A stretch of 32,432 nucleotides of DNA, taken from contig CAJXNO010000034.1 in assembly GCA_913057205.1 (NCBI GenBank), positions 1 to 32,432 of the forward strand. The letters run 5' to 3'. The position numbers were made by a program, and so were the translations under genes. The DNA is from an uncultured Flavobacteriales bacterium (GTDB lineage Bacteria; Bacteroidota; Bacteroidia; Flavobacteriales_G; Salibacteraceae). Below the pieces are notes generated by a model. The model was not told where the DNA came from. It did not search any database and saw only the letters and a list, made by a program, of their open reading frames with translations. Shown here in pieces: positions 29,310 through 32,432 of the stretch; the stretch's first letter is position 1; every line of letters begins with the position of its first letter.

Positions 29310-29394
29310 GGAGAGTTGGCAGAGTGGTCGAATGCGGCGGTCTTGAAAACCGTTGACCTTTGCGGGTCCGGGGGTTCGAATCCCTCACTCTCCG
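29310..29394 (+). tRNA. tRNA-Ser (anticodon TGA)
   Basis: The acceptor stem GGAGAGT (29310-29316) pairs with ACTCTCC (29387-29393), with discriminator G at 29394. The anticodon stem GCGGT/ACCGT encloses loop CTTGAAA, with anticodon TGA at 29344-29346. A long variable arm (TTGACCTTTGCGGGTC) fits a class II serine tRNA. GGGGGTTCGAATCCCTC is the T arm. CCA is not encoded. The gene is the likely attachment site of the integrase-bearing element to its right. Confidence 0.95.
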
Positions 29395-29436
29395 CATAGA
29401 TACTGTACCAAAGTGTACCAAAATGCTCAAAACCAA

Positions 29437-29464
29437 CGTTTTGGGCATTTTTTTTGCCCAAACG
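29437..29464. terminator. Hairpin with T-rich loop downstream of tRNA-Ser
   Basis: TGGGCA (29442-29447) pairs with TGCCCA (29455-29460) around seven Ts. Outer pairs extend with one bulged T to CG/CG at 29437-29438 and 29463-29464. It may end tRNA-Ser transcription, although the U-tract is in the loop rather than after the stem, or it may be part of the attachment region. Confidence 0.4.
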
Positions 29465-29510
29465 GGTGTAACAAAATGCACCAAAATGTACCCACATTGG
29501 GTGGCTTAGC

Positions 29511-29545
29511 GGGTTGACTTTTTGGAAGTCTGAAAAAGTCAACCC
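29511..29545. repeat. Perfect 13-base inverted repeat upstream of the integrase
   Basis: GGGTTGACTTTTT (29511-29523) and AAAAAGTCAACCC (29533-29545) are perfectly complementary around a 9-base loop. There is no following T-tract, so it is not a normal terminator. It sits between the second and third repeat clusters. Confidence 0.6.
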
Positions 29546-29664
29546 AGCAATGTTACAAAATGGTACATAATGGTACTGATGTTCAGTTAGTTGTGAGTAG
29601 GTTTTTTCGGCTAAGTTTACCACTTTTGAAATGGAAATGGAGGGCTTAATTAACGTTAAGTCAG

Positions 29665-30912
29665 ATGTACAACGAAAGATCAAGTTACTCGCTGGTGTTT
29701 TTGATCAGCAGAACAAAACCGAAGGTAAATGGAGAATGTCCTATTTACCTAAAAATCAACATCAACGGGGACAAAACCAGGTTCCCAGTGAAGCGACACC
29801 TTCTACCCGAGAAGTGGGATTCTAAACGCACACGGATGAAAGGTCGCTCTAAAGAGGCCGAGGTATTCAACAAGTACCTTGACGCTATTAAATTAAGAGC
29901 CAATAAGTTATACAACGAACTATTGGCAAATAATGCGGAGGTAACATCCCAAATGCTAAAAGACGCCATTTTGGGAACCAATGAAGCGCGGCCTAAAACC
30001 ATCATCAGCGTGTTTGATGATTATGTGGAGCGACTCCACTCTTTATTAGGTAAAGAGACCACGTATGCCAATTTCCAGAAGTACAGAACAACTCGGAATC
30101 ACCTCCAGGCCTATTTGCAGAAGGCCTACCGGGTGAGTGATGTGAGTATCAAAAGAATTGACCACAGCATGATCGAAGGCTTTGAGCACTTTTTGAAAAC
30201 GGAAAAAGGTTGCAGTCACAATACGGCAATCAAGTTTCTTCAAAACTTCAAGAAGATTACCAAGGACTGCATCAAACGAGGTTGGCTTATCAAAGATCCA
30301 TTCATCAATAAGAGCCTCTCTCTAAAGGAAGTTAGCAGGCCTTATCTGAACGAAGAGGAACTAAATCGTATCATGGACCTCAATTTGCGAATTGAGCGCT
30401 TAGAACGTGTCAGAGACTATTTTCTCTTTGCTTGCTGCACTGGCTTGTCCTATGCCGATGTCAAGAAGTTTACCCGGAAGGAAATCGAAATCACCGATTC
30501 CGGCAAGTGGGTCAAAACCCGCCGACAGAAAACGGGTGGCGTGGTTTACGTGCCGATCCTAGATGTAGCCTGGCAAATCATTCAGAAGTATAACCCCTAT
30601 TTCGATCAACTCATGCCGGAGGACCCCGTTTTTCCAATCATGAGCAATCAGAAAATGAATGGTTACCTGAAAGAAATTGCGGACTTAGCCAAAATCACCA
30701 AGCCGTTGAGTTACCACATCGCGCGTCACACGTTTGCTACAACAGTGACCATGCTCAATGGAGTGCCAATCGAAACAGTAAGTAAGATGCTTGGGCATAA
30801 AAACATCACTTCCACCCAGCACTACGCGAGAATCGTAGATACCAAGGTAAACAAGGACATGAAGGTCCTAGCTGACCAGTTGGATGGAAAGATGGTCGTG
30901 AATTGGAGTTAA
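29665..30912 (+). CDS. Tyrosine recombinase/integrase, IntDOT-like
   Basis: The 415-residue integrase has an N-terminal arm-binding region (residues 1-90; [26 protein letters not shown]), a SAM-like core-binding domain (about 105-210) and a catalytic domain. Catalytic residues visible are K289, H351 and R354 (HIARHTF), H378 (LGHKN) and nucleophile Y387 (HYARI). The first catalytic Arg is replaced by S262 in [10 protein letters not shown], and R287 lies two residues before K289. That pattern is known from the CTnDOT integrase, where Ser259 replaces Arg and R285 helps. It lies directly downstream of tRNA-Ser and the repeat clusters. Composition (about 47% GC in one sampled line) is like the host, not like the AT-rich genes to its right. 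Confidence 0.9.
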
Positions 30913-30964: not shown

Positions 30965-31189
30965 ATGGACGAAGAGAAATTCAGAATCAAAACCTATGGC
31001 TTTGGTGAGCTCGCTCAGCTCTACTTACCCGATGCTACTCCTATGAGCGCGTCTAACCGACTACGCATCTGGATTACCCGGAATAAAACCTTGATGGACA
31101 AACTTCACAACCTAGGCTACGTTAAAAAAGCACGCCTACTAACTCCTGAGATGGTTAAGGAAATTGTGGCTGTCATTGGGGAACCGTGA
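30965..31189 (+). CDS. DUF4248 family small protein
   Basis: The 74-residue protein matches DUF4248, common in Bacteroidota genomes and often near mobile elements: KTYGFGELAQLYLPDATPMSASNRLRIWI, then LGYVKKARLLTPEMVKEIV and a closing GEP. It looks like a small winged-helix or helix-turn-helix type protein, an inference from size and basic residues. It follows the integrase in the same direction after a strong hairpin. An excisionase or repressor role is possible but unproven. Confidence 0.72.
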   Translation: MDEEKFRIKTYGFGELAQLYLPDATPMSASNRLRIWITRNKTLMDKLHNLGYVKKARLLTPEMVKEIVAVIGEP

Positions 31190-31857: not shown

Positions 31858-32432
31858 TTATTGTTTTACAAGTGTTTTTTTACTTGTAAAGCGTTCTTTA
31901 ATTGAATCAACCACATAGTACACAACTGGAACTAGATATACTGTTAGAATGAGTGATGATGTTACTCCTCCTATAATTACCCATGCCAATCCATTTTTCC
32001 ATTCGCTTGCTGTTCCTTGCGCCATGGCAATTGGTAACATCCCAACAATCATAGAAATACTTGTCATTAAAATGGGACGCATACGACCTTTTCCTGCTTC
32101 AATTAGTGCATCCTTGTAATACATGCCTTGTGCCTTTAGTTGGTTGGTAAAATCGACTATTAAAATGGCATTTTTCACAACCAATCCCATCAACATAATC
32201 ATTCCTAATAGCGCAAATAGACTCAGATGACTTTGCGAAAGATTTAGTGCTAGGAAAGCCCCAATAACAGCAACTGGTATAGAAAACAATACCACAAATG
32301 GATAAATGAAACTATCATATAATGCAACCATAATGAGGTAAATAAGAATAAATGAAATTAAAAGAACAGAACCTAAAGCACCAAAACTATCGTTCTGTCT
32401 TTTAATGTCACTTCCCCAAGTCATTTGCATAC
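31858..32432 (-). CDS. RND-family efflux permease, C-terminal part (partial)
   Basis: About 190 C-terminal residues of a large RND (AcrB/HAE1-type) pump; the remainder lies beyond the right edge. The visible part has several membrane segments: SVLLISFILIYLIMVALYDSF, PFVVLFSIPVAVIGAFLAL, FALLGMIMLMGLVVKNAILIVDF, MRPILMTSISMIVGMLPIAMA and WVIIGGVTSSLILTVYLVPVVYYVV. GLVVKNAILIVDF and GRMRPILMT are diagnostic of RND pumps. These use the proton gradient to extrude drugs or lipids together with a periplasmic adaptor and an outer-membrane channel, probably encoded upstream outside the window. The gene is AT-rich (27% GC in 31861-31920). The substrate is unknown. Confidence 0.9.
   Translation of the reverse strand, partial: MQMTWGSDIKRQNDSFGALGSVLLISFILIYLIMVALYDSFIYPFVVLFSIPVAVIGAFLALNLSQSHLSLFALLGMIMLMGLVVKNAILIVDFTNQLKAQGMYYKDALIEAGKGRMRPILMTSISMIVGMLPIAMAQGTASEWKNGLAWVIIGGVTSSLILTVYLVPVVYYVVDSIKERFTSKKTLVKQ

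Follow-up and report, generated by a model that had tools for sequence, protein, structure and literature searches.

A probable tRNA-Ser genomic island of an uncultured Flavobacteriales bacterium with two classes of candidate protein-binding sites in its integrase-side attachment arm

The integrases of the Bacteroides mobilizable elements NBU1 and NBU2 target the 3' ends of tRNA genes, that of tRNA-Leu in the case of IntN1 (NBU1) and that of tRNA-Ser in the case of IntN2 (NBU2), and the N-terminal domain of phage lambda Int binds the 10-bp tandem sites P'1-P'3. NBU1, NBU2 and CTnDOT are included in the IntCTnDOT subgroup of integrases (PMC8138268), NBU2 integrates at tRNA-Ser (PMC9259675; PMC5704250), and excision of NBU1 requires element-encoded factors (PMC5704250). 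The CTnDOT enzyme, a complex integrase, makes contact with subterminal arm sites through an arm-binding domain at its N terminus (PMC8138268); in lambda, arm sites distant from the core bind the N-domain of Int, and a second protein, Xis, binds other sites (PMC4880445). The promoter of the KplE1 prophage int gene (intS) lies inside attL beside a tRNA gene, with autoregulation by Int and a directionality factor (PMC2951348), and for RdfS of ICEMlSym, oligomers have been proposed to bind about one DNA turn per subunit (PMC11963761).

We analysed a window of 32,432 bases, the entire contig C34 of a genome of 68 contigs from an uncultured Flavobacteriales bacterium, in which an intact tRNA-Ser gene is followed by a tyrosine integrase gene, int (Table 1). 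The arm-binding (PF17293), SAM-like core-binding (PF13102) and catalytic (PF00589) domains of the integrase each scored above the profile cut-off, and from these domains and the distribution in Bacteroidota we infer that the enzyme fits the subgroup of NBU1, NBU2 and CTnDOT. Judged by its sequence, the segment from the tRNA gene to int probably represents the integrase-side attachment arm (attL) of a genomic island at tRNA-Ser, with the crossover presumably within the tRNA 3' end. The locus resembles NBU1 and NBU2 in that a tyrosine integrase lies beside a tRNA 3' end, a likeness of target and subgroup; none of the NBU mobilization genes appeared in the small part of the island at hand. It resembles CTnDOT in its complex integrase with an N-terminal arm-binding domain, a likeness of domains; unlike CTnDOT, which to our knowledge does not integrate at a tRNA 3' end, the island uses one. 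Part of the attL layout described here may already have been published for NBU1, NBU2 or CTnDOT. No relatives of the integrase were found in viral contigs, and blastn of the tRNA-int segment against plasmid and phage collections returned no match.

Table 1. Features at the left end of the island (positions in the window)
Feature	Position	Strand	Basis
tRNA-Ser(TGA), target gene, intact at left junction	29310..29395	+	ARAGORN
attL core CTCTCCGCA, common to presumed attR on contig C48	29388..29396	+	sequence match C48:10088-10095 reverse strand, plus one base
Genomic island left end: int, DUF4248, TetR regulator, RND efflux subunit; runs off contig	29396..32432		gene content
X cluster A: two 10-bp units GTACCAAAGT, GTACCAAAAT	29405..29424	+	unit starts 29405, 29415
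Hairpin 1, element-carried intrinsic terminator: stem 29420-29433/29438-29451, T-run to 29455	29420..29455	+	RNA fold
X cluster B: three 10-bp units GTAACAAAAT, GCACCAAAAT, weak GTACCCACAT	29468..29497	+	unit starts 29468, 29478, 29488
Site Y (hairpin 2): direct pair GGGTGGCTTAGC/GGGTTGACTT, 12-bp spacing, plus inverted AAAAAGTCAACCC, perfect 13-bp palindrome	29499..29545		sequence
X cluster C: three 10-bp units, inverted, just upstream of int promoter region	29552..29581	-	unit starts 29552, 29562, 29572
Likely -7 element of the int promoter, TAAGTTTA, ~30 bp beyond cluster C on its right	29612..29619	+	sequence reading
Tyrosine integrase, 415 aa: Arm-DNA-bind_5, Phage_int_SAM_5, Phage_integrase	29665..30912	+	domain profiles
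DUF4248 protein, 74 aa, candidate directionality/regulatory protein	30965..31189	+	profile; position downstream of int

As in KplE1, with which it shares neither host nor related integrase sequence, the locus has a likely int promoter inside attL adjoining the tRNA gene. At the position of the -7 element, relatives carry TAGTTTTG, TAATTTTG and TATTTTTG; the Bacteroidota -7 consensus is TAnnTTTG-like, and a sigma-70-type promoter scan gave no match, as expected for Bacteroidota. A conserved sequence resembling TGTTCA...TGAACATCTTG precedes the int promoter, about 60-90 bp upstream of int, in many distant relatives (L022, L023, L027-L032).

The right end of the island is probably on contig C48, whose reverse strand shows CCTCTCCGCA, next to it what looks like a displaced terminator (AACGCAATCATC...GATGATTGCGTTTTTT) and, further on, a gene of the OmpA family. 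This assignment is made because that gene is located downstream of the uninterrupted tRNA-Ser gene in four sister genomes (by alignment for L064, L067 and L068, in genomes G020, G021 and G012, and by reading of the printed sequence, with the same gene start, for L070 in G019); we infer the join of the separate contigs C34 and C48. Other tRNA-Ser matches in the genome (C36, C22) were considered as right ends and are ordinary tRNA genes. The core common to attL and the presumed attR is only 9 bp in this element; in six relatives, the right end carries a duplicate of 13-23 bp from the RNA 3' end. The cargo at the two presumed ends comprises RND efflux subunits, a TetR regulator and an IS. RND efflux genes lie at both ends (window 31858-32430, AcrB-type, left; L076 4029-6425, right), of which the right-end gene is CusA/heavy-metal-type by sequence reading, and both contigs terminate inside their RND genes.

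The initial annotation had described variants of GTACCAAAATG in three clusters between tRNA-Ser and int, regularly spaced and separated by two hairpins. The unit starts confirm the exact 10-bp spacing inside all three clusters, and likewise the distances between cluster starts (63 from 29405 to 29468, and 84 from 29468 to 29552). The layout required two amendments: there are three clusters as claimed, but the units of cluster C, which we call X as in the other clusters, are in the opposite orientation (GTTAC/GGTAC/GGTAC, the reverse complement of GTACC), which had been missed; and the pair and triplet arrangement is real, but cluster B contains three units. The inversion is clearest in the relative L019, where clusters A and B read GTCTA and cluster C reads TAGAC. 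At lag 10, the 269-bp tRNA-int segment has a self-match score of 22, a value reached by none of 3000 mononucleotide shuffles (maximum 7), and in the rest of the contig no stretch scored above 9 at any lag from 7 to 30. Because GTACCAAAATG alone, with up to 2 mismatches, is only weakly enriched in the whole window (14 matches vs. 8.5 expected), the signal is the spacing and not the word. Eight matches to the array pattern in viral contigs were rejected; they have no tRNA gene nearby and on inspection look like chance.

Both hairpins claimed between the clusters are present. The first is an intrinsic terminator (RNA fold -18.3 kcal/mol, z -3.59), whose stem is kept in relatives, with a G-U pair replaced by A-U in L012, and in most relatives the RNA gene is followed by a similar terminator; after integration, this element-carried terminator probably ends the tRNA-Ser transcript. 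The second, site Y, is a palindrome with 13 of 13 pairs (arms 29511-29523/29533-29545) and an additional direct copy 12 bp upstream, at 29499. Among the 55 loci that have an RNA gene and a terminator, 47 have such a palindrome (score >= 9), compared to 2% of shuffles, and 77% of these palindromes start 107-117 bp from the RNA gene (median 111), compared to 0% in shuffles. An extra Y half-site directly upstream of int, in the presumed int 5' untranslated region, was observed in L024, L035, L038, L040 and L042, which suggests control of int by the Y-binding protein.

Across a family sample of 96 integrase loci, we compared the corresponding segments. Six relatives (L008-L013, 87-96% identical) share the segment, which starts at a tRNA-Ser 3' end (TGA, GGA) or an att copy; the tRNA-Ser genes that it occupies differ, the host sequences around them look unrelated, and, on this comparison, it is a segment that moves with the integrase. 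Conservation of the motif in homologous elements, which the initial annotation had proposed as a check, was found: the array is kept at the same place and travels with int, and the claim that the repeats bind protein within the attachment region of an element at tRNA-Ser is thereby supported. The array is probably bound cooperatively. Cluster A is kept in L009, L011-L013, L016 and L017, and is reduced to a single unit in L008; where integrases are 54-57% identical, the same layout is found with the letters changed. The lag-10 score is 112 in the nearest clade of 8 loci (2.1 in shuffles) and 74 in 26 distant loci (6.6 in shuffles), and in the latter the lag-12 score, which corresponds to the spacing of Y, is 50 (5.7 in shuffles). 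From the RNA 3' end to the int promoter, the recurring order is X units, intrinsic terminator, a second set of X units, palindrome Y and a third, often inverted, set of X units, and it was found beside tRNA-Ser, Arg, Lys, Glu, Asp, Tyr, Phe, Pro, Val and tmRNA genes.

The distance from cluster B to cluster C is 84 in 8 of the 10 loci checked, whereas that from A to B varies between 61 and 63. The initial annotation had placed all clusters on one face of the helix, which holds for B and C in most close relatives but is broken in L013 and L008: L013 has lost 12 bp of Y, leaving 72 between B and C, and perfect phasing is therefore not universal, and L008 lacks one 10-bp unit from cluster A and one from cluster C. 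Such gain or loss of single units, together with the position of cluster C against the int promoter, is what would be expected if the repeats had no part in recombination and were merely tandem duplications of local origin or an operator of the promoter. We consider this very improbable, however: one unit type occurs in three separated clusters of which one is inverted, the B-Y-C distances (33/51 or 34/50) are fixed down to 54% integrase identity, and tRNA-Ser, Lys, Asp, Glu, Phe, Tyr and tmRNA genes all have elements with this layout beside them.

In L008 (L008:5613-5736), tRNA-Ser and the array are separated by an insert of ~113 bp. A second copy resembling the tRNA 3' end closes this insert, which would fit the insertion of another element at that site or a remnant of one. 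In L077 (G146:C10:567061-578607), tRNA-Ser is separated from the relative of our element by ~11.5 kb that encode, on the opposite strand, another integrase with 22% identity, which is tandem occupancy of one tRNA site. In L165-L167 (G238:C1), element L109 seems to end on its right where the left end of another family member, L108, lies, giving two tandem islands.

The two site classes are distributed differently over the two arms. Y is present inside the other end in all seven elements with a located attR, six found by script and our own element by hand (the copy on C48 is TTGGGTTGCTTAGCGGGTTGACTT). In the six, Y has the same orientation and lies 89-104 bp from the duplicated RNA end, and each match was equalled in at most 5 of 400 random windows. 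By contrast, motifs A, B and C of X were not consistently above random windows in 178 bp at the seven right ends; isolated matches were B in L016 (overlapping Y), C in L116, and A and C in L153.

Pairwise comparison of the sites with the integrase domains separates them further. Similarity of Y follows the identity of the arm domain (rank r = 0.28, N = 55), with partial correlations of 0.24 given the catalytic domain and 0.23 given the SAM domain (permutation p = 0.001, N = 55), whereas Y is not significantly correlated with the catalytic domain given the arm domain (0.05). The correlation of X with the arm domain is 0.14 for cluster A and 0.03 for cluster B; a weak but non-zero link thus remains for cluster A, with a partial correlation of 0.11 given the catalytic domain (p = 0.009). 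A smaller, earlier set of 23 loci gave the same picture for Y and no correlation between X and the arm domain; in distant, AT-rich loci the similarity of X is difficult to score, and a weak link to the arm domain could escape detection. Individual pairs illustrate the pattern. L023 and L106 share 95% identity in the catalytic and 96% in the SAM domain but only 33% in the arm domain, and differ in Y and also in X, while L022 and L106, with arm domains 55% identical, both have the Y sequence CGGTTACCC. L034 and L036 have catalytic domains 86-87% identical to that of L037 and arm domains 53-54% identical, with X kept and Y changed; L016 and L105 have arm domains 76% and SAM domains 90% identical, and their X sequences are entirely different. 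Such swaps of arm domains between elements suggest that arm specificity is exchangeable.

Because Y follows the arm domain and occurs on both arms, and X follows that domain weakly at best and was not found on the other arm, Y appears to be the better candidate for the arm-type sites of the integrase, and X probably binds another element protein, perhaps the directionality factor. The assignment of the 10-bp array to the integrase, one of the binders proposed in the initial annotation, is not supported, given array-arm correlations of 0.03-0.14 and no array found on the other arm. By analogy with lambda, X as integrase arm sites had also been our own first choice, which we dropped after the arm-domain comparison. 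The reading in which X units are arm-type sites like P'1-P'3, and Y binds a directionality factor or other partner, agrees with the 10-bp tandem spacing on the integrase-side arm, the Arm-DNA-bind_5 domain of the integrase, the weak correlation of cluster A with the arm domain, and the lambda precedent of arm sites on the P' arm (PMC4880445). We nevertheless judge it clearly the less probable assignment, as complex integrases normally carry arm sites on the right arm too, where X was not found, and as X is the same in L034 and L036 as in L037, to which their arm domains are 53-54% identical, but differs between L016 and L105, whose arm domains are 76% identical. The array here also differs from the lambda P' arm in having one cluster inverted, and we know of no lambda counterpart for the palindrome with 12-bp repeats.

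A further proposal of the initial annotation, that DUF4248 binds the array, makes this small protein an excisionase or regulator acting on X. Its gene directly follows int throughout the clade, and 10-bp arrays are stronger in loci with DUF4248 (mean 8.3 vs. 1.8, p = 0.002), an association confounded by relatedness, as these loci are mostly of one clade; L008, the only close relative with no detectable DUF4248, is also the one that lost an X unit in each of clusters A and C. Against this, X is still GTACC in L012 and L016, although their DUF4248 proteins are only 57% and 54% identical, weaker arrays occur without DUF4248 (L025, L040, L134), DUF4248 was not found near most family members, and 17 of the 28 DUF4248 genes found have no such integrase within 1.5 kb. 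Searches with an AlphaFold model (pLDDT 87) gave weak unrelated matches only; this lack of a structural match tells nothing about whether the protein has the winged-helix DNA-binding fold looked for in a directionality factor. No DUF4248 relatives were confirmed in viral contigs. With evidence on both sides, we regard DUF4248 as a possible but rather unlikely candidate for the X-binding protein. The likeness to ICEMlSym RdfS lies in the spacing of about one DNA turn, host and integrase sequence being unrelated.

Taken together, we favour, with a probability of about 0.6, a reading from sequence comparison in which the attL arm combines a terminator, Y as the site of the integrase arm domain and X as the site of a second element protein. 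The element's terminator would replace the displaced terminator of the tRNA gene, and the N-terminal arm-binding domain of the integrase would most likely recognise Y, also near the other end of the island. The X units (2 direct, 3 direct, 3 inverted), which flank the terminator and Y and end at the int promoter, would most likely bind cooperatively a second element-encoded protein, for example a directionality factor that also controls int transcription.

In Bacteroidota, genomic islands and resistance genes are moved by integrases of the NBU/CTnDOT group, and NBU1 and NBU2 vectors based on such integrases are laboratory tools. The present comparison separates two site classes that would otherwise be pooled as 'arm repeats', and it yields a testable rule for attachment sites: the RNA gene is followed by a terminator and, ~111 bp from its 3' end, by a palindrome, of which a further copy lies ~90-105 bp inside the far end. 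More speculatively, and in our estimate improbably as a whole, there may be a large family of tRNA-targeting Bacteroidota islands with one attL architecture, in which X, confined to the int side, would be the nucleation site for a helical filament; the filament would consist of a new type of directionality factor (DUF4248 in this clade) that couples excision to int transcription. The shared architecture would comprise an element-supplied tRNA terminator, an integrase arm palindrome at a near-fixed distance of 111 bp and a partly inverted 10-bp array.
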